This document shows positions 7,960 through 45,999 of a stretch of DNA of 64,000 nt, piece by piece. The position numbers and the translations under genes are program-made. Where the stretch lies: the NCBI RefSeq assembly GCF_001571005.1, contig NZ_BCST01000006.1, positions 186,001-250,000 on the forward strand. The letters run 5' to 3'. The notes under the pieces are model-generated. The model was not told the DNA's origin. It made no database searches and saw nothing but the letters and a program-made list of their open reading frames with translations. Source of the DNA: Herbiconiux solani NBRC 106740. GTDB taxonomy: Bacteria > Actinomycetota > Actinomycetes > Actinomycetales > Microbacteriaceae. Position 1 is the first letter of the stretch, and the number at the start of each line of letters is the position of its first letter.

Positions 7960-7997
7960 GGTGCACCCCCTGGGACTTGAACCCAGAACCCACTGAT
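7960..7997. other. attL core (displaced tRNA-Lys 3' end)
   Basis: 38 bp identical to 45925-45962, covering the anticodon-stem 3' side through the T-arm and acceptor of tRNA-Lys. Identity stops at 7998 (A against T). The fragment has no 5' tRNA half next to it, so it is the displaced host end. Confidence 0.93.
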
Positions 7998-8767: not shown

Positions 8768-8916
8768 GTAGAGTCGTCCGCATGATCGTGCGCGCCGGAT
8801 ACCTCGTCGACGGAGAACCACGCGAGGACCAGACTGAAGCGCCCACCTACGACGCCGCTCTGGCCGCCCTGCCCGTGCGCGAAGCGCAGCGTCTCTGGCT
8901 GAAGGTCGAGCGGTAG
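8764..8916 (+). CDS. Very small phage cargo protein, unknown
   Basis: 50 codons from GTG 8764, which overlaps the previous stop as GTGA, to TAG 8916, which overlaps the next GTG by one base. Predicted sequence starts VSRVVRMIVRAGYLVDGEP and is short and charged. The tight overlaps on both sides are the main support; an internal ATG at 8782 is an alternative start. Confidence 0.5.
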   Translation: MSRVVRMIVRAGYLVDGEPREDQTEAPTYDAALAALPVREAQRLWLKVER

Positions 8917-9134
8917 TGCTCCTGTTCCTCGCACGCGGCATCGAGAGCGATCACTACTGGATCGTGCAGGAAGTCGACGGCACGCTCGTCGAGACGCCGT
9001 GGCGGGTCGAGCACGAGTCGGACGGGTACCGGCTGAGTCACGCTGATGACTCCGCGCAGACCGCTCGGGTGTTCGCGCTCGGTGCTTTCGAGTTCCCAGA
9101 GCAAGCAGTCTCGGCCCTTCGCGACATCCTCTGA
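8916..9134 (+). CDS. Small phage cargo protein, unknown
   Basis: 72 residues from a GTG that shares one base with the preceding stop. Acidic, soluble, with alternating beta-type sequence (IESDHYWIVQEVDGTLVE) and no membrane segment. No family recognised. Third of three translationally coupled small genes ahead of the surface-modification cassette. Confidence 0.6.
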   Translation: MLLFLARGIESDHYWIVQEVDGTLVETPWRVEHESDGYRLSHADDSAQTARVFALGAFEFPEQAVSALRDIL

Positions 9135-9185: not shown

Positions 9186-10340
9186 ATGGGGCGCGGGGAG
9201 ATCATCACATCGAGCCGGCCGCTGCTGGCTGGCCTGACCGGCATCCGTGCCCTCGCCGCGGCCTGGGTCATCCTCGAGCACTTCGAGAAACCGATCTACG
9301 CGCTACTGCCAGGCACCGTGCCGCTCGAGCCGTGGATCAACGCCGGCTACCTCGGCGTCGAGATCTTCTTCATCCTCAGCGGCTTCATCATCGCCTACAA
9401 CTACGCCGAGCGTTTCCGACGCTTCACGTGGGGGAACTACCGCCAGTTCCTCGAGCTCCGGGTCGCACGCATCTACCCTGTGCAACTGGCGACCCTCCTG
9501 CTGGTCGGTGTGCTCGTCATCGCGGCTGCTGCGGTCGGTGTCTCTCTCGAGGCGGCCGACAAGTTCACGGTCCCGAACTTCATCGCGAACGTCTTCATGC
9601 TGCAGGCCATCCCGCCGTTCGAGGCATGGAACGGGCCCGCCTGGTCGATCTGCGCCGAGTTCGGCGCTTACCTCGTCTTCCCACTAATCGCCCTAGGCGT
9701 CGCCGGGGTGCGGTCACCGCGCACCGGGTTCCTGCTCAGCGCCGCCATATGCGCGGTCACGGTCGTCGCGCTCATGCTGTACGGCACCTACGTCGACACC
9801 TCGCCGACCAGCTACGGGATGATCTGGCTCCGCATCGCTGGCGAGTTCTCCATGGGCTGCTTCCTCTACAGCGGGTGGCGCTACCTCGGCACCCGCCAGA
9901 CCGGCCGAGGCTGGGCCATCGCCGCCGGCGTATCCATCATCGCCATCGGCATCGTGATCGGCTTTTCGACCGAGAAGTACCAGTCGCTCCTCGCGCTACC
10001 CTTCATCGCTCTCTTCGTGCTCAGCTGCGCCGGAGCGACGGGCATCGTCGGCCGCGTGCTGCAGTCGCGCGTGATGATCTGGGGCGGAAAGGTCTCGTAC
10101 TCGTTCTACATGACCCACTTCATCGTCCTGATGGTGGTCGGGAAACTCCTCCCTTGGGAGTCCTTCGAGCAGTCGTCGCTCGTCGTCAGGATCGGTGTGC
10201 TCGTCGCCTACTTCGTGGGGGTCTACGTCGCGGGGACGGCGTGCTACTACCTCGTCGAAGAACCGGGGCGGAAGCTCATCCGACGCCTCGTCAAGAGGTC
10301 GCGCAAGCAGCCGCTTCCCACACAGGTGCGGTCCCTGTGA
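9186..10340 (+). CDS. Acyltransferase-3 family membrane O-acyltransferase
   Basis: Integral membrane enzyme that transfers acetyl or similar acyl groups from the cytoplasm to extracytoplasmic glycans (OafA/YrhL/NolL family). Opens with LTGIRALAAAWVILEHF, which holds the family's Arg and catalytic His (His32); GYLGVEIFFILSGFIIAY and RVARIYPVQ are further signatures, with about ten hydrophobic helices over 384 residues and no C-terminal SGNH domain. The ATG is only about 7 bases after a TACGCT -10-like hexamer, so the mRNA may be leaderless. Prophage cargo, opposite in strand to the late genes: likely lysogenic conversion by modifying the cell surface. Substrate unknown. Confidence 0.9.
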   Translation: MGRGEIITSSRPLLAGLTGIRALAAAWVILEHFEKPIYALLPGTVPLEPWINAGYLGVEIFFILSGFIIAYNYAERFRRFTWGNYRQFLELRVARIYPVQLATLLLVGVLVIAAAAVGVSLEAADKFTVPNFIANVFMLQAIPPFEAWNGPAWSICAEFGAYLVFPLIALGVAGVRSPRTGFLLSAAICAVTVVALMLYGTYVDTSPTSYGMIWLRIAGEFSMGCFLYSGWRYLGTRQTGRGWAIAAGVSIIAIGIVIGFSTEKYQSLLALPFIALFVLSCAGATGIVGRVLQSRVMIWGGKVSYSFYMTHFIVLMVVGKLLPWESFEQSSLVVRIGVLVAYFVGVYVAGTACYYLVEEPGRKLIRRLVKRSRKQPLPTQVRSL

Positions 10341-10552
10341 TGCGAGACGAATGGTGGCGTCTGTTCAAGAAGCCCTCCACCGCGTTCTGGCTCGGCGGCG
10401 CGGCAACCCTGCTGGGACTCTGCTTCCTCCCCTTCGCAGCCAGCGATCCCGACCTCGGGTTCAGCATGGCGGCGATGTTCCTCGTGATCGCCGCACTCCT
10501 GTTCCTGAGCGGTTACGCTTCGACCGTGTCCGACAGAATGCGTGACAAATGA
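10340..10552 (+). CDS. Small two-helix membrane protein in glycan cassette
   Basis: 70 residues starting at an ATG that overlaps the acyltransferase stop (TGATG) and ending in a TGA that overlaps the next ATG (ATGA). A basic amphipathic start (MRDEWWRLFKKPS) is followed by two hydrophobic helices (about 15-32 and 42-59). Perhaps an accessory or assembly factor for its two membrane-enzyme neighbours; no family recognised. Confidence 0.75.
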   Translation: MRDEWWRLFKKPSTAFWLGGAATLLGLCFLPFAASDPDLGFSMAAMFLVIAALLFLSGYASTVSDRMRDK

Positions 10553-11832
10553 GCACCACCTTCCACCGCTCGACCGAGGTCGCGCAGATGGAGAAGCAAG
10601 ACTTCGCCCTCAAGGCCGGGCGGGTGCTCCTCTACCTCGGATTGACCTTCGTCTCGATCACGGTGCTCCGCTTCGGTGAATCCGGGATCACCTTCGGCGA
10701 CATCTTCATCTTCGCCAGCCTGGTCTTCACGATCCTCTCCAGGCTTGATCGCAGCGACCTCTACACGCTGAGGCCCGGAGCGGTCATCATCACCGGGATG
10801 CTCGTAATCGGTGGCCTGCTGGCGACGTTCTCAGCGCTCAACCCCCTTGGGTCCGCGCTCGTCCTCGTCCGCATCCTCATCGTCGCCGTGATCCTGCCCT
10901 GGCAGGCGATCTACCTGCTTTCAGACACCCGCTTCCTCTACCGGGGCGCATTCGCGTTCGCCCTCGGCGGGGGCATCACCGGCGCCGGAACGATCGCCCA
11001 ATCCGTGCTCGGACCTGGCGTGATCCCCGGCACCGAGATCACGAACGCCGGCCGGTACACCGGCTTCGCGCAGCACGTGTCCGACACTGGCGGCATCACC
11101 AGTGCAGCGCTCATCGTCGCGTTCGGGTTGATCATCGCCGCGACCACCCGACGGCAGCGCTTCGGCGCGGCCGCAGTTGCACTCGGGGCGGGCATCGGGC
11201 TCATCCTCAGTGGCAGCGTGTCCGGTCTGATCGCAGTCGCGGTCGGGTTCCTCATCTTCGTCATTCGCAGAGCCATCCGCCCCGGCACAGCGGTCCTCAT
11301 AGCCGTGGCCGGCGCCGCTGTCTTCTGGATCGCATCGGCCATCCAGGCGGCGACCTCGAACGCGCTCGACCCCTGGCAGCGAATCCTCCAAACCCTAGGC
11401 CTCAGCGCGGGCGGCCGGTACGCGACCTCTGAGATCCGTGCATCCACCTACCAGACCGCGGTCGACAAGACCTTCCTCAACCCCTTCGGCTACGGCCTAG
11501 ACCCCGCCTCCTCGATCGTGGACGGAACCTTCCCGGCTCACAACCTGCTCCTCGCCGCGCTGTACCAAGGCGGCTTGATCTTCGCGATCGCCATCCTCGC
11601 GCTCATCGTCCGCCCCTTCCTGGGCAGATGGCTGCGCACCGACCCCTCCACCCTCACGACCGCGATTCTCGCGACTGCTGTGTCGGCGTTCGTCTTCGCG
11701 ATGACAGCGCCGAGCATGTACAACCGCTACTTCTGGGTTCCCATCGCGCTGCTGCTAGTTGCCCGGTCGCTCGCGGGAACGACGAAAGACCCCCTCAGGG
11801 CCAGCCCGAAGGCCAGCCCCAAGGGGGTCTGA
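10549..11832 (+). CDS. O-antigen ligase/polymerase-like membrane protein
   Basis: 427 residues with ten or more hydrophobic helices and the large outside loop typical of the Wzy_C/O-antigen ligase superfamily, here GGRYATSEIRASTYQTAVDK through NPFGYGLDP to the PAHNLLLAALYQGG motif. Such proteins polymerise or ligate lipid-linked glycans on the outer face of the membrane. ATG overlaps the previous stop (ATGA), so it is translationally coupled. In a Gram-positive prophage the likely targets are host wall or capsular polysaccharides. The exact reaction (polymerase or ligase) cannot be told from sequence. Confidence 0.82.
   Translation: MSTTFHRSTEVAQMEKQDFALKAGRVLLYLGLTFVSITVLRFGESGITFGDIFIFASLVFTILSRLDRSDLYTLRPGAVIITGMLVIGGLLATFSALNPLGSALVLVRILIVAVILPWQAIYLLSDTRFLYRGAFAFALGGGITGAGTIAQSVLGPGVIPGTEITNAGRYTGFAQHVSDTGGITSAALIVAFGLIIAATTRRQRFGAAAVALGAGIGLILSGSVSGLIAVAVGFLIFVIRRAIRPGTAVLIAVAGAAVFWIASAIQAATSNALDPWQRILQTLGLSAGGRYATSEIRASTYQTAVDKTFLNPFGYGLDPASSIVDGTFPAHNLLLAALYQGGLIFAIAILALIVRPFLGRWLRTDPSTLTTAILATAVSAFVFAMTAPSMYNRYFWVPIALLLVARSLAGTTKDPLRASPKASPKGV
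11787..11830. terminator. Possible terminator between convergent cargo and tail genes
   Basis: AGACCCCCT (11787-11795) pairs with AGGGGGTCT (11822-11830) around a repeat-rich loop inside the last codons of the ligase-like gene. No T-run follows, so strength is doubtful. Confidence 0.45.
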
Positions 11833-11849
11833 GGTTCCGCGTTACCCGC

Positions 11850-14243
11850 TCACGCGAGCGGGAGAGTGCGCACGCTCTCGTAGTAGCCGACTCCAGCGGA
11901 GTGAGCCACGCCGTGCTTCGTCGAAGCAGCCATGACTGTGGGCGTTCCTCCGGCCAGGCCGTCGACTGTGTCGTAGCCGGTCCAGATGCTCACTCCGTTG
12001 ATCCGGAAGTCGAGCGCGAGGCCGTTCCGGTAGCACTCGAGCACGTCACCGGCAGCAATCGTGACGGTGGTCGTCACCAGAGTGGCGACGGTCGTGCTTG
12101 CGGCCGCGCAACGCTTGACCAGACGGTAGTGGAGATCCGACCCCGACACGCGTGTGAGCGAGTAAAGGTTGGACCCGTCGACCATCCGTTCGCACAGTCC
12201 CGTAAATCCGGCTGAGCCTGGGTCCGCGACCACCACCCGGGTGATGCCGTTGAGGTGGGCGTCGTTGTAGGTCCAGTACACGACCCCGCTGGTGCCAGTC
12301 AGCTTGCCCTTGTTGCTCTCGATGGCGGCGGTTGATCCGCTTCCGGTCGACGCCCAGGGGAAGCCGCCGGTAGGAGTCGAGCCCCACCCCGAACCGTCCG
12401 ACCTATGGAAGTCGTCGAGGCCATAGATCGTGGGGTCCGGGTCAGGTGGCGGCGTGGTCGGAGACTTGCGCATCGAGTAGGTCTCGAACGGGATTCCCTT
12501 CTTGGCCGCCGCGGTCTGGGTGACCGAGAGGCTGAGGATGATCTCCGTGATGAGCATGATCGCGTAATGGAGTGCGCCGAGGTAAGTCGGGTGCGCTCCG
12601 TCGTCCCACATGAACCAGTCAACGGAACCGTCGAGCACGCGGTTGTTGCGCTTGCCCTGGTACTTCCCGTAGAACCACTGCTGCGTCCGGGGCGAGAACT
12701 GGGTCACGATCGAGCGGCCGGCCGCGGCGGCTTGAGCCTCCTGCTCCATCTGAACCATCCGAGCCTCGTTCGGGTCACCGATGGAGTACCGGATCTGCGG
12801 CGAGATCATGTAGATGGTGTCGAGGGTTGGGCACTCAGCGGTTAGACGGTCCAGGATGACACCGATCCCCGTCTGGAGGTCGCCGGCGGGGAAGGGGATG
12901 TCGTTGATCGACAGCTCGAAGATGAACTTGGTCGCGCCTGAGGCGTTGACCGCGTTGATGAGCGGAGTGAGTCGGACCGGGTCCTGGTAGTTCCGCGATC
13001 CGGCGGGGCCCGTGTTCAGCACACCGGTTCCGCCTTGGCCGCTGAACGAGAGGCCCCAGTTGAGCGCCTCGGCAGTGATCGTCGGCCAGTTGAACGGGAT
13101 TGGCGCGAACTTCCCGTCCGCCCACCAGGAGTCACCCACGCCCACCGCGAAGATCGGGCGCTTGGGAGGAGCCATGGCAACCGCGCCCGCGGAGACCGCC
13201 AGCTTGCCGAGGGTGCCGTTGACGGCCGTCAGGCGCACCCGGCGGACCTCGTCTCGGTCGAGCTTGAACCGGAGCCAGCCCGGCGCGGGAGTGCTCGTGG
13301 CTTCCTCGTTGGTGAGGAACATCTCCTGAGCGAGCTGATTGTCGAGCCAGAGCTGCACCCTCATGCTCGCGTTGTTGGGCCGGGCGTACACCGCGAATTC
13401 GGGCCCGCCGAGGATGCTCTCATAGTCGGAAACGCTGCCGGTGCTGCGGACGAACGCGCCGGTGCCGGAGGCGACGATGGCGCCGCTCGAGCTGATGTCT
13501 TCCCGACCGCCGCGGGTGAGCGTCCAGGCCGAACCCTCGGTGCTCTTGAGGTCGTAGATGGTGCCGGGCGCGGCCAGGCCGGTATCGCTGGAGGAGGCGA
13601 TCCAGTCGGCGTAGAAGCTCTTGCCGCTCTTGCCGTAGGCGCGGGCGACCAGCATCTCCGCGTACTCCGTTGCCATGTACCCACCGCGGTTCGGCGTGCC
13701 GACAGCCGAGCCCAGCGCAGCCTTGGTGAGGGCACCTGTGCCCACGTTGTTCGCGGTCTGCGCGTCGGAGGATGTCCCGACGGCGGCCGCAGCAACCGCT
13801 GCGGCTTCTGCCCTTTGCGCGGCTTCGAGCGCTTCCTGAGCGGATGCGAGGGCATCCTGAGCGGCCTCGAGCGCCTGGTCGGCGTAGGTCGGTCCGTACT
13901 CCGGAGGCTGCACCGGCTGAGTCTCCTTCATCGTGGAGTAGTCCACGGGGGTGCCCGTGGCGCCCTCGAAGGTGCGGAGCTCGACACGGGTGTCGCCGAT
14001 CTGACGATTCACGCTGTCGAAGTCGCGGAAGGCGAACTCCCAGACGAGCCAGTCACCGTCGTACGTGGTTTCCACGTTGTCGATCGTGACCTGCCCGTTC
14101 TCGAGCTTGAAGGTCTTCGCGATCGGCCAGTTGATCGTCGTGCCGTCGACGAACCGGTACGCCGGCTGCACGTCGACGGTGGTGTTCTTGTTCGCCACGC
14201 CGGGCCCGATGACGGACTTCACGAGCAGGGACTTCTTCGCCAT
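11850..14243 (-). CDS. Tail/baseplate protein with SGNH esterase domain
   Basis: 797-residue receptor-binding or tail-tip protein. Order: N-terminal baseplate-attachment-like beta domain (about 1-105); alanine-rich coiled coil (about 122-155, LEAAQDALASAQEALEAAQ); a beta domain; an SGNH/GDSL hydrolase domain (about 365-570) with block I GVGDSWW, block III SIND and block V DDGAHPTYLG carrying the Ser, Asn and Asp-His residues; then, after a Pro-rich linker (TTPPPDPDP), a C-terminal lectin-like beta sandwich. SGNH domains de-esterify polysaccharides, so it probably trims acyl groups from the host surface glycan. GAGGAG precedes ATG 14243. Confidence 0.85.
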   Translation of the reverse strand: MAKKSLLVKSVIGPGVANKNTTVDVQPAYRFVDGTTINWPIAKTFKLENGQVTIDNVETTYDGDWLVWEFAFRDFDSVNRQIGDTRVELRTFEGATGTPVDYSTMKETQPVQPPEYGPTYADQALEAAQDALASAQEALEAAQRAEAAAVAAAAVGTSSDAQTANNVGTGALTKAALGSAVGTPNRGGYMATEYAEMLVARAYGKSGKSFYADWIASSSDTGLAAPGTIYDLKSTEGSAWTLTRGGREDISSSGAIVASGTGAFVRSTGSVSDYESILGGPEFAVYARPNNASMRVQLWLDNQLAQEMFLTNEEATSTPAPGWLRFKLDRDEVRRVRLTAVNGTLGKLAVSAGAVAMAPPKRPIFAVGVGDSWWADGKFAPIPFNWPTITAEALNWGLSFSGQGGTGVLNTGPAGSRNYQDPVRLTPLINAVNASGATKFIFELSINDIPFPAGDLQTGIGVILDRLTAECPTLDTIYMISPQIRYSIGDPNEARMVQMEQEAQAAAAGRSIVTQFSPRTQQWFYGKYQGKRNNRVLDGSVDWFMWDDGAHPTYLGALHYAIMLITEIILSLSVTQTAAAKKGIPFETYSMRKSPTTPPPDPDPTIYGLDDFHRSDGSGWGSTPTGGFPWASTGSGSTAAIESNKGKLTGTSGVVYWTYNDAHLNGITRVVVADPGSAGFTGLCERMVDGSNLYSLTRVSGSDLHYRLVKRCAAASTTVATLVTTTVTIAAGDVLECYRNGLALDFRINGVSIWTGYDTVDGLAGGTPTVMAASTKHGVAHSAGVGYYESVRTLPLA

Positions 14244-15493: not shown

Positions 15494-16429
15494 TCAGACG
15501 GAGACCGTGATCGGCGCGTGCCCGTGCTCGACGCGGGTGCGGTTCGCCTGGTCGACGAGGAACAGGAAGTCGTCGCGGGACACGACGCGCTCCCCGAACT
15601 CGTTGTCCCGGGTGGGGCGCAGCAGGCCGAGATTCACCATGCGCTCACGCTCATCCCCGACGAGCTCGCGGACGAAGCCGTCAGCGATGCTGATTGCCCA
15701 CTGGCGCGGGGTGCCGTCGATCCGGTATCCGAGGATGTTCGTCGACGCGGCCGGCGTGAGCTTCAGGATCTCCTTGAAGATCAGCCCATCCGGGCCGGTC
15801 GCCGGGTTCTGGGTGGTCGCCTGGTCCATCTGCAGCCGAAGCCGGTACTCGAGCGTGTGGTCCTGGCCGACGGCGCCCTGGCGCAGGAAGGCGTCGAACA
15901 CCGCCTGCGTGGCGATCTTGAGCAGCTGCTCTTCGGTGTAGGGCATGTCGTCTTCCTCCTCGGGGAACGGGGTGAAGTCGGAGCTGGCCCAGTCAGACCA
16001 CCCGCCGACGTAGTTGAAGTGCCACGGCTCGCCCGACGGTTTGCCGACGAGCTCCCACGACCAGCCGAAGCGGGGCGCGTTCGCGACGAGCCAGCGGTGC
16101 CGGTCGGTGTTGCCGCCGTTGCCGTACACCCACGAGTTGATGTCGACCGCGAGACCCTGCCCGTGCGAGGACGTGCCCGGCACCGCCGCGACGTTGCCCT
16201 TCCCGGAGCGGTACAGGTTGTAGAGATACTGCTGGGTGGGGATGTCGCGGAACGCCTCGCTGATCGTGAACGCGACCCCGAAGGCCGCCTCGAAGGCCTC
16301 CGCGAAAGCACGCAGCGACCGGGCGGCGGCCGGCTGCAGGAAGTGGCCGAGCCCGTCGAAGTCGAGCATCAGCCGCTTCGCCGCGACGTCGCCGTTCTGC
16401 AGCTGCGGCGCCCACGGAATCGCGCCCAT
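15494..16429 (-). CDS. Endolysin, M15 (VanY-like) peptidase
   Basis: Cell-wall-cleaving lysin that cuts peptidoglycan cross-bridges as a zinc L,D- or D,D-peptidase. The catalytic domain (about 15-145) shows SSHGQGLAVDIN with zinc ligands His89 and Asp96, and EPWHFNY with the third ligand His137. The C-terminal half (about 170-311) is a helical domain of unknown fold that may bind the wall. ATG shares one base with the stop of the gene before it. Length 311 is usual for actinophage lysins. Confidence 0.92.
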   Translation of the reverse strand: MGAIPWAPQLQNGDVAAKRLMLDFDGLGHFLQPAAARSLRAFAEAFEAAFGVAFTISEAFRDIPTQQYLYNLYRSGKGNVAAVPGTSSHGQGLAVDINSWVYGNGGNTDRHRWLVANAPRFGWSWELVGKPSGEPWHFNYVGGWSDWASSDFTPFPEEEDDMPYTEEQLLKIATQAVFDAFLRQGAVGQDHTLEYRLRLQMDQATTQNPATGPDGLIFKEILKLTPAASTNILGYRIDGTPRQWAISIADGFVRELVGDERERMVNLGLLRPTRDNEFGERVVSRDDFLFLVDQANRTRVEHGHAPITVSV

Positions 16430-30667: not shown

Positions 30668-30714
30668 CGCGATCCTCCCGGATTCACTAGGGCCGCGAGG
30701 CACACCCAGAGCCC

Positions 30715-30787
30715 CGCCGCCGCCAGGAATCGAACCTGGGACTTCGCCGCGCCATGTGACGTACTCTCCCACTGAGTTACGGACGAC
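30715..30787 (-). tRNA. tRNA-like element before terminase genes, degenerate
   Basis: The T-arm CCAGGTTCGATTCCTGG and D-arm ACTCAGTGGGAGAGT are well formed, and the acceptor can pair fully (5' GTCGTCCG with 3' CGGCGGC) only if one C is bulged. The anticodon arm is poor: stem CGTC/GGCG and a loop without the invariant T33, so no amino acid can be assigned. Either a decayed phage tRNA or a tRNA-shaped element with another use. No CCA is encoded. Confidence 0.6.
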
Positions 30788-30980
30788 GGGGTTGGTCTAA
30801 AGAGGGTCTCACGCGGACGCGGACACCGTGTTTTGGAGAACTCACTCACCGATGGGGGAAATCACTGCCGGCGGAATGCCCTGGGTGGTGTGCTGCAGCG
30901 ATTTTGACCCCCCTGCCCCTAGGTGTACCCATTTGGGGTCGGAAAGTGGCTTAGGCGGGCGTATAGCGCCGCGTGGGTGG
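30788..30980. other. Non-coding gap, candidate cos/packaging region
   Basis: No gene. A C-rich run with an inverted repeat GACCCC (30906-30911) and GGGGTC (30935-30940) lies just upstream of the terminase genes, where siphoviruses keep cos. No direct evidence of cleavage. Confidence 0.35.
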
Positions 30981-44286: not shown

Positions 44287-44726
44287 TGTTGCAGCTGGTG
44301 GGGGAGGCTATGCGGCTGGGGGTCCGCATCCACGTCGCACATCTCGATCAGATCGAGGAGGGCCTGCTCGGGTTCTACGACCACGACGAGAACACGATCT
44401 ACGTCGACATGAACCTGACTCGGGCCGAGCGGAACGAGGTCGTCGCGCACGAGCTCGGGCACGCCCAGTTCTGCCACACCTGCGACAGCGAGGTCGGGGA
44501 GCGGCAGGCGAACCGGTACGCGGCCGGCCTGCTCGTCGACCCGGCCGAGTACGCACGCGCCGAGGCGATGTCGACCGACGTCGCGTTCATCGCTGAGGAG
44601 CTCGACGTGACCCCGCAGATCGTCGTCGACTACCGGCGGTATTGCCTCGAGCGGATCGGTGTCACGACGTACGCGTCGCCTCACATGGGCTCCGGGCAGT
44701 GGTCGGCGCGGTACGCGAATGCCTAG
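44286..44726 (+). CDS. ImmA/IrrE-type metallopeptidase
   Basis: 146 residues with the zinc motif HELGH (55-59) and downstream Glu in VGERQANRYAAGLLV, the ImmA/IrrE (M78) pattern. Such proteases cut a partner XRE repressor after DNA damage, causing induction. ATG overlaps the repressor stop (TGATG), so the two are made together. Confidence 0.9.
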   Translation: MLQLVGEAMRLGVRIHVAHLDQIEEGLLGFYDHDENTIYVDMNLTRAERNEVVAHELGHAQFCHTCDSEVGERQANRYAAGLLVDPAEYARAEAMSTDVAFIAEELDVTPQIVVDYRRYCLERIGVTTYASPHMGSGQWSARYANA

Positions 44727-45846
44727 GCCGCCGATGCCCCTCGAGACGTGGGGGAAGATTCGCCGCACGGTCGTCGGCGGGAAGCCGACGGCGGTCACCT
44801 ACTACCGGAACTCGACCGGGAAGCGGCTCGTGATGCAGCGCTCTGGGAAGTCGCACGCGCAGGCCGAGCGGGCCCTCCTCGAAGCGCTCCGAGCGGCCCT
44901 GTCCGAGGATCCGTCGGAGGCGCTGCTGTCGCCTACGTCGACGGTCGCCGAGCTCGCGCACGTGTGGCTCGAGGAGCGGAAGCTGAAGGGCACCACGGCG
45001 GGCACGATCAACACCTACCGGAACTCGATCCGCGCCCACATCGAGCCGGGCCTCGGCAGTCTCCGCATCCGGGAGGCGACGACCCCGCGGCTCGATAAGT
45101 TCATCCGCGGCCTCATGCGCTCGAACGCGACCGCGCGCACCGCCCGCACCGTGCTCATGCAGATGTTCGCCCTCGCCGTCCGCCACGGCGCCGTCCAGAC
45201 GAACCCGGCCGCCGGCGTCATCGCGGTCACGGCGACGAAGAAGCTCGTGAAGGTCGTCGGCGCGGACGAGCTGCGCCTCATGCGCGACCTGTTCCGCGAG
45301 TACGACAAGCACCACGTCTCCGAGCTCTACGAGATCGCCCAGGTCCTCACCGCGACCGGCGCCCGCATCGGCGAGGAGCTCGCCCTCGACTGGGACACCG
45401 ACACCGACCTCGACAAGGGGCGCGTGTTCGTGAACAGCACCCTCATCACCGACGGGGGCCTCGTCCGCCAGGACCACCCGAAGAGCTTCGCCGGCCACCG
45501 CGGCCTCACCTTGCCGCGCACGGTCCACACGATGCTGCTCGAGCGACGCGTGCACGCCGAGTACGAGATGGTCTTCCCCTCGTCGACGGGAACGTACCGG
45601 TGGCCGGCGAACGTGCGCCGGCAGTGGCGGGATGCGCTGAAGGGCACACCGCTCGCCGGGAAGACGCCGCGCGACTACCGGAAGGCCGTCGCGACGCACC
45701 TCGACCGGAAGCTCGGTGTGAAGGCTGCAGCAGCCCAGCTGGGGCACGGCACGGAGGACATCACGATCGAGTACTACATCGAGAAGCAGGAGACGATCTC
45801 GGACTTCTCGGAAGTCATCGAGACCCTGTTTGAAAGTAGCGAGTAA
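44719..45846 (+). CDS. int: Tyrosine integrase
   Basis: 375 residues: short N-terminal arm-binding region, core-binding SAM-like domain (STVAELAHVWLEERKLKGTT) and catalytic domain with Arg216 (ATGARIGEEL), Lys in the KSFAGHRG hairpin, Arg321 in PRDYRKAVATHL, His343 (LGHGTEDIT) and nucleophile Tyr352. The box II His is replaced by Arg318. Overlaps the ImmA stop by eight bases. Ends 78 bp from the att core, recombining into tRNA-Lys. Confidence 0.93.
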   Translation: MPRPPMPLETWGKIRRTVVGGKPTAVTYYRNSTGKRLVMQRSGKSHAQAERALLEALRAALSEDPSEALLSPTSTVAELAHVWLEERKLKGTTAGTINTYRNSIRAHIEPGLGSLRIREATTPRLDKFIRGLMRSNATARTARTVLMQMFALAVRHGAVQTNPAAGVIAVTATKKLVKVVGADELRLMRDLFREYDKHHVSELYEIAQVLTATGARIGEELALDWDTDTDLDKGRVFVNSTLITDGGLVRQDHPKSFAGHRGLTLPRTVHTMLLERRVHAEYEMVFPSSTGTYRWPANVRRQWRDALKGTPLAGKTPRDYRKAVATHLDRKLGVKAAAAQLGHGTEDITIEYYIEKQETISDFSEVIETLFESSE

Positions 45847-45923: not shown

Positions 45924-45999
45924 TGGTGCACCCCCTGGGACTTGAACCCAGAACCCACTGATTAAGAGTCAGTTGCTCTGCCGATTGAGCTAGAGGTGC
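45924..45999 (-). tRNA. tRNA-Lys (CTT anticodon)
   Basis: 76 nt with encoded CCA. Acceptor GCACCTC/GGGGTGC (one T-G pair), D-arm GCTCAATCGGCAGAGC, anticodon stem ACTGA/TCAGT with loop CTCTTAA, and T-arm GGGTTCAAGTCCC. All arms fold, so the gene is functional after integration. Confidence 0.97.
45925..45962. other. attR core within tRNA-Lys
   Basis: 38 bp identical to attL. The phage supplies the 3' half of the tRNA gene, so an intact tRNA is rebuilt on this side. Confidence 0.93.

Follow-up and report, generated by a model that had tools for sequence, protein, structure and literature searches.

Pseudomonas phage D3 (NC_002484) carries a seroconversion unit made up of an O-acetylase, Iap, and the polymerase Wzy-beta; D3 lysogens have a changed O-antigen linkage and resist superinfection (PMC4815439, PMC11436027; these and the papers below are cited for excerpts). 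In Acinetobacter, the prophage-borne polymerase genes wzy1Ph and wzy2Ph alter the capsule linkage, and it is speculated that a depolymerase together with a Wzy keeps relatives out when the tail enzyme fails on the new form (PMC13228068). Klebsiella prophages encode SGNH receptor-binding proteins, and at each K-locus 5-30% of prophages have acetyltransferases; adding and removing acetyl groups is suggested to play a part in recognizing hosts as well as in competing with other phages (PMC13123978). Among Gram-positives, phage-borne TarP modifies wall teichoic acid (PMC9650247). The window considered here (64,000 nucleotides of Herbiconiux solani NBRC 106740, contig NZ_BCST01000006.1, positions 186,001 to 250,000) contains an apparently complete ~38-kb prophage, sited in a tRNA-Lys(ctt) gene of this Microbacteriaceae (Actinomycetota) genome. 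Between its attL site and its last tail gene lies a cassette of three genes, encoding an acyltransferase-3 (AT3), a 70-aa membrane protein, and a Wzy_C-family protein. We put the probability at about 0.6 that this cassette is a D3-like lysogenic-conversion module for an exo- or capsular polysaccharide made by Wzx and Wzy, with a probable SGNH esterase on the tail acting separately.

The three genes form a plus-strand operon, with the junctions CTGTGATGCGA and CAAATGAGCAC (TGATG and ATGA overlaps). An earlier note had described this same cassette, with its overlaps, its position between attL and the tail gene, and a third gene resembling a ligase or polymerase; the family matches and the junctions as read bear it out. 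AT3 scores 101 bits against PF01757 (cut-off 31), 157 bits against phrog_3333 ("O-acetyltransferase"), and 74 bits (E 1e-20) against phrog_6705 ("O-antigen acetylase"). Both conserved AT3 motifs, V-x-x-FFx[IVL]SG[FWY] and RxxR as defined in PMC9558356, are found; the residues present are R21, H32, V58-EIFFILSG-F67, and R92-VA-R95. The G+C fraction at third codon positions (GC3) is a normal coding composition throughout the cassette: 0.90 for AT3, 0.80 for the 70-aa gene, and 0.87 for wzy. These values lie near those of the phage fibre, tape measure, capsid, and portal genes (0.86-0.90).

The D3 unit is the best match. Its order is tailspike, iap, O-antigen acetylase, and wzy-beta, followed by lysis genes and attP; in both phages AT3, a small protein, and Wzy occupy a slot between a tail gene and att (in D3, the lysis/att region). 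Function for function the cassette corresponds to the D3 unit, except that Iap has no counterpart recognizable by sequence: D3 Iap has 31 aa, and the small protein here is of another kind. Other differences are plain. The D3 conversion genes lie on mixed strands, whereas those in the window form one overlapping operon; the D3 AT3 carries a fused SGNH domain (PF19040), which the AT3 here lacks; Wzy-beta falls below the PF04932 cut-off (21.9 bits), whereas the protein here exceeds it (39.8 versus 31.7); and the D3 tailspike is pectate-lyase-like, whereas the fibre here is probably an SGNH esterase. The cassette is best explained as a D3-like conversion unit in a Gram-positive; polymerase-swap seroconversion itself is already known from Gram-negatives. 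Searches of open-licence papers turned up no Gram-positive for which a prophage Wzy or an AT3-Wzy prophage unit is described.

For the third gene the best reading is a probable polysaccharide polymerase (Wzy), which refines the "ligase or polymerase" of the earlier note. Relatives are found in 3 of 299 genomes of the family, own included, and at one locus in the genome_contigs collection, which belongs to the same Compostimonas as the nearest relative (Compostimonas suwonensis, NZ_PGFB01000005.1; 44-46% identical). That gene lies between a Wzx flippase gene and an AT3 gene in a capsule-type locus, directly after the AT3 gene and with an ATGA overlap, so the gene order is that of the phage. Neighbours recognized by eye are an initiating sugar transferase, glycosyltransferases, and a CpsD-type protein, and the Wzy relative is the sole polymerase candidate seen in the 19.5-kb stretch. 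The Compostimonas pair differs from the cassette in lying outside any phage, in having no small open reading frame (ORF) between its genes, and in an AT3 that is not detectably close. The next relative, 28% identical, is part of an AT3-Wzy-AT3 cluster. At the level of families, the phage-borne alternative Wzy of a D3-type unit has a candidate here: a match above the PF04932 cut-off whose nearest relative lies in a Wzx-containing locus.

Gram-positive bacteria are not known to make lipopolysaccharide, and an O-antigen ligase function was rejected on the locus context of the relative and on the Gram-positive host. A broader alternative is that the Wzy_C protein is a ligase or other glycan transferase, with AT3 modifying another wall polymer (peptidoglycan or teichoic acid). 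The PF04932 title, "O-Antigen ligase", allows for a ligase-like role, and AT3 substrates may be many, given that the host genome holds ten AT3 matches (the phage's included); set against the place of the relative beside Wzx as the only polymerase candidate in its stretch, this alternative is improbable.

A conversion module of this kind presupposes repeat units to act upon, and the host genome (3.85 Mb in 18 contigs) contains a candidate source: a capsule-type locus at C2:81.6-100.4 kb with Wzz/kinase, initiating transferase, Wzx, and glycosyltransferase genes. It shares several gene types with the Compostimonas locus: initiating transferase, WcaI-like glycosyltransferase, hexapeptide acetyltransferase, and Wzz/kinase (in both loci names were assigned by eye except where Pfam was run). 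In the Wzy position stands a 450-aa membrane ORF without a Pfam match (C2:93784-95136, equivalent to L030:13785-15137, plus strand). PF04932 matches nothing in the host genome apart from the phage gene, and at E 1e-5 the phage Wzy has no match among the other ORFs of that genome. Since the host locus has its own, dissimilar Wzy candidate and the phage gene is the sole PF04932 match, the prophage seems to supply an additional polymerase, unlike the resident one, to a host in which repeat units are already being made. The 450-aa ORF may, separately, represent an undescribed Wzy family.

The genes of the host locus have GC3 values of 0.63-0.78, below the 0.80-0.90 of the cassette, and recent capture of the cassette from that locus was rejected on this basis. 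Nor does the pair seem to have been simply lifted from a locus of the Compostimonas kind, because the two AT3 proteins are not detectably close. In Compostimonas, the Wzx, Wzy, and AT3 genes (L020:7415-11058) have GC3 values of 0.53-0.55. Because GC3 is low against the ~0.8-0.95 of many neighbours, the sequences suggest that the capsule-type loci of the host and of Compostimonas have been horizontally exchanged.

AT3 and Wzy are ordinary exopolysaccharide genes, and each of the two other loci that hold a Wzy relative has them side by side. The cassette might therefore be cargo of general benefit to the host, altering an exopolysaccharide in a way that helps with stress, biofilm, or colonisation; phage exclusion would then be incidental or would not occur. 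D3, however, keeps its superinfection-blocking genes in the same slot between tail end and att (PMC4815439), and we regard general-benefit cargo as unlikely.

The tail gene next to the cassette encodes a fibre that probably is an SGNH esterase. The earlier note had assigned SGNH catalytic blocks to this gene, and the blocks stand in their usual order: GDS (from residue 367), GQGG (401), SxND as SIND (442), and DGAH (547). A motif pattern, composed only after the fibre blocks had been seen, matches 3 of 603 ORFs against 0.15 expected from shuffles; the other two matches are the cargo GDSL protein of phage Kukla and the tail esterase of phage Hum25. The pattern is strict: Kukla has a known GDSL tail protein that escapes it. 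Fibre blocks I-III align with a profile built from four GDSL proteins (E 2e-4, with a probability of only 46%), which is suggestive. Counting against the SGNH assignment, the Pfam GDSL/SGNH models (PF13472/PF00657) give no match to the fibre at E 0.1; its sole match in the PDB is meaningless (E 0.82); and a single-sequence structure prediction of the domain is unusable (predicted local distance difference test, pLDDT, 36), too poor for searching.

The fibre N-terminus is common to fibre-like ORFs elsewhere. The whole protein matches one phage record, by its C-terminal part only. By the N-terminus or by parts from residue 537 on it matches 7 of 299 genomes of the family (own included); among these, no relative except the fibre itself covers the SGNH core. 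A nearby minor tail protein has relatives in 2 of 398 genomes, own included, and the other one lies near a contig end where the slot is not visible.

A second prophage-like region of the same genome (contig C1, ~107.5-127.7 kb) has an integrase remnant and the same small ORFs on its attL side. Its fibre is related to that of the window at the N-terminus (33%) and shows GDSL-like motifs by eye; neither the pattern nor Pfam scores it as GDSL. The slot cargo differs, with Fic-like and membrane proteins recognized by eye, and the stretch searched yielded no AT3.

Does AT3 beside an esterase tail recur? The earlier note had raised the question whether the cassette accompanies SGNH fibres and no others. 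The whole cassette was found in no other phage of the collections searched; the comparison below concerns AT3. Five Arthrobacter phages were inspected, of which Kukla and Hum25 were found through their AT3 and TripleJ, Pitbull, and MrSmee were chosen as integrase relatives; in three of the five, as in the prophage, AT3 lies beside a tail-end esterase family (in one of the three chosen by integrase alone). Kukla has a tail-end GDSL protein followed by convergent genes for GDSL and AT3 proteins, the cargo GDSL protein being separate; Hum25, a tail-end GDSL protein and a convergent AT3-SGNH fusion; and MrSmee, a tail-end SASA (PF03629) protein with AT3 on the tail strand. All three share with the window the series of regulators, integrase, small genes, AT3, and tail-end esterase family. 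AT3 and the tail gene converge in Kukla and Hum25, just as they do in the window; in MrSmee both lie on one strand. TripleJ has a GDSL tail at 31.1 bits, just below the cut-off of 32.9, and no AT3 annotated in the slot, an absence that rests on the annotation because tblastn missed even the AT3 of MrSmee. The Pitbull tail protein has no Pfam match and may or may not be an esterase, since the window's fibre too lacks a GDSL Pfam match. The slot between tail end and integrase holds varied acyl-acting cargo in these phages, including a GDSL hydrolase in TripleJ and a hexapeptide acetyltransferase in Pitbull. No Wzy is annotated in the five phages within the ~19-kb stretches viewed.

A survey of IMG/VR gave 47 AT3 loci, several of them near-identical, with 230 neighbours; 179 remained after deduplication, and 131 were scanned once short ones and some others had been set aside. 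GDSL was found in 4 of the 131, Baseplate_J in 9, Gp48 in 7, and beta-helix/pectate-lyase families in a few. Single Wzy_C neighbours may also occur, because the families known are the top 25 of 43 and of 34. Home-made Wzy and SGNH profiles and the strict motif matched none of the 47 loci. These tools are insensitive: the SGNH and Wzy profiles are too narrow, with 5 and 3 matches, and miss the window's own fibre and the Wzy of D3. Close relatives of the window's Wzy, AT3, and fibre were found at 0 loci each in viral_contigs, where a search with a Wzy alignment also gave 0, and for AT3 the genome_contigs collection gave 17 stretches, none confirmed.

AT3 near tail-end genes recurs, and it is not tied to esterase tails. 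The D3 tailspike and the IMG/VR neighbours led to rejection of the rule that AT3 goes only with esterase tails; the confinement that the earlier note had asked about is not supported, on the same evidence (AT3 beside a pectate-lyase-like tailspike in D3, GDSL in only 4 of 131 neighbours) and on the GDSL tail without AT3 in TripleJ. As a specific association the pairing is unproven. Curtobacterium is a member of the Microbacteriaceae. Its prophages encode predicted depolymerases, most of which could act as deacetylases (PMC9862828); esterase tails may accordingly have a high base rate, and AT3 and an esterase tail may co-occur by chance.

These observations bear on a stricter proposal, that AT3 and the tail form a matched pair, the tail SGNH domain taking off exactly the acyl group that AT3 puts on, so that a single phage would open a decoration and close it again. 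Kukla (GDSL), Hum25 (GDSL), MrSmee (SASA), and the prophage here do have AT3 next to a tail-end esterase family, and in Klebsiella prophages SGNH receptor-binding proteins and acetyltransferases are both frequent, with interplay suggested (PMC13123978). TripleJ, however, has an esterase tail without AT3, and D3 has AT3 beside a tailspike that is no esterase. The proposal of the earlier note, that both act on the same decoration, is also logically awkward, because the added group would not keep out a phage whose tail strips it off; exclusion would reach only phages that lack this esterase. A matched pair is therefore doubtful, although it overlaps with the D3-like module and the odds of the two are not exclusive. 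What stands is that one phage encodes both a glycan-modifying cargo and a probable esterase tail, and that lysogenic conversion of a surface polysaccharide is what the cargo fits best; its restriction to esterase tails is not supported. Forms of the paired idea are already published for Klebsiella (PMC13123978) and Acinetobacter (PMC13228068). The Klebsiella prophages are temperate phages that resemble the prophage here in combining SGNH tail esterases with acetyltransferase cargo; they are Gram-negative cases, and the excerpt of PMC13123978 mentions no Wzy unit and does not describe a fixed pair. The Acinetobacter polymerases, likewise Gram-negative, go with a tailspike depolymerase and not with AT3 and an SGNH tail.

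The D3-like module is favoured over a strict pair because self-exclusion needs a change that the tail cannot undo. Such a change could be a new backbone linkage, made by Wzy, or acylation elsewhere. If the cassette is expressed in the lysogen, AT3 would act outside the membrane, acylating chains or lipid-linked repeat units. Host repeat units would be joined by the phage Wzy, which would replace the host Wzy or work alongside it and so give a different linkage. The 70-aa membrane protein may assist, or may interfere with the host complex; this is the weakest step. The altered coat would then hinder adsorption of other phages. Separately, the tail SGNH domain would de-acylate surface glycan at entry, probably at a different, native acyl group.

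Several results weigh against this model. To the ligase title of PF04932 may be added that the phage and Compostimonas AT3 proteins give no blastp match at E<1, and that the Wzy structure model is unusable (pLDDT 38), too poor for searching. The small protein fits least well. A paper cited by PMC4815439 calls Iap a mimic of Wzz in its title, whereas the 70-aa protein is not significantly similar to the host Wzz: of 1000 local shuffles, 391 do no worse, and Wzz mimicry was rejected on that count. The protein instead matches the C-terminal half of a ~136-aa uncharacterised membrane protein of other family genomes. A search of 249 genomes found matches in 14 at E<=0.01 (own included), several with the ~136-aa protein, and a profile of five of these relatives scores 23.4 bits against the 70-aa protein, versus 15.0 for the best of 500 local shuffles. 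There is no clear relative in phages, and the best Pfam match has E 0.013. Because it lacks a likeness to Wzz and resembles another membrane protein, an Iap role is unsupported by its sequence.

The remaining adverse results concern whether the cassette acts at all: no sigma-70-like promoter was found for it, and no second phage in the collections searched carries it. The promoter result says little, because only 0.3 sites would be expected by chance. Passenger DNA, silent and without effect, would account for both. This is most improbable, given that the three reading frames are all open and overlap, that their GC3 is of the coding type, and that the AT3 motifs are conserved.

The prophage around the cassette (Table) looks intact, judged by its gene set: terminase, portal, protease, capsid, connector, tape measure, VanY endolysin, replication genes, regulator, and integrase. 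The cassette shares its strand with the regulator and integrase, the tail genes lie on the opposite strand, and a few small ORFs separate attL from the cassette. In a circular phage, the cassette would come after the integrase, across att.

Table. Features of the prophage in the window (window coordinates).
Feature	Position	Strand	Remarks
attL	7960..7997		38 bp, exact match to attR 45925-45962
Acyltransferase-3 (AT3), 384 aa	9186..10340	+	PF01757, phrog_3333, phrog_6705; no fused SGNH domain
70-aa membrane protein	10340..10552	+	two predicted hydrophobic helices
Wzy_C-family protein, probable polysaccharide polymerase	10549..11832	+	PF04932, 39.8 bits versus cut-off 31.7
Inverted repeat	11787..11830		20-nt arms, 80% complementary; 3' end of wzy, between convergent genes
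Tail fibre gene, 797 aa	11850..14243	-	last gene of minus-strand tail module, convergent with cassette
Probable SGNH esterase domain of fibre	12588..13145	-	residues 367-552; blocks I, II, III, V
VanY-type endolysin	15494..16429	-	PF02557, 61 bits; tail/lysis module adjoining cassette slot
Tyrosine integrase	44659..45846	+	phrog_1, 144 bits; cassette's strand, opposite prophage end
attR	45925..45962		inside tRNA-Lys(ctt) 45924-45999; 38 bp identical to attL

A tRNA-Pro(tgg) gene also lies inside the prophage, at 30714-30788 near the terminase end. Close to attL, a 72-aa ORF (8916-9134) belongs to an ORF family that has 6 matches in the own genome; across 398 genomes of the Microbacteriaceae, 14 contain a match (own included), and 10 of the 14 are from the same genus. 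Used as a marker of the slot, it led to 20 stretches (two of them short contig ends; neither G036 nor the own C1 region among them), with a Wzy relative in none and AT3 in one. It is found in many contexts and was therefore rejected as a phage-slot marker.

A wider claim combines Gram-positive seroconversion of the D3 type (a Wzy swap, in which a prophage polymerase related to that of the corresponding Compostimonas locus takes over from the dissimilar host Wzy and switches the linkage, together with AT3 acylation) with a recurring slot in actinobacterial temperate phages, running from regulator and integrase across att to cargo and tail end, that keeps acyl-adding cargo beside an acyl-removing tip, the two co-evolving and moving as a unit. 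This is tentative, and we would sooner bet against it than for it. The Arthrobacter phages with acyl enzymes in the slot provide isolated phages, growing on a laboratory strain (B-2979), in which the question of adding and removing could be tested. If the D3-like module is real, the Wzx/Wzy coats of actinobacteria also would be rewritten by phages, part of their coat diversity would be explained without changes in the capsule loci, and exclusion by coat change would become directly testable in actinobacteria.

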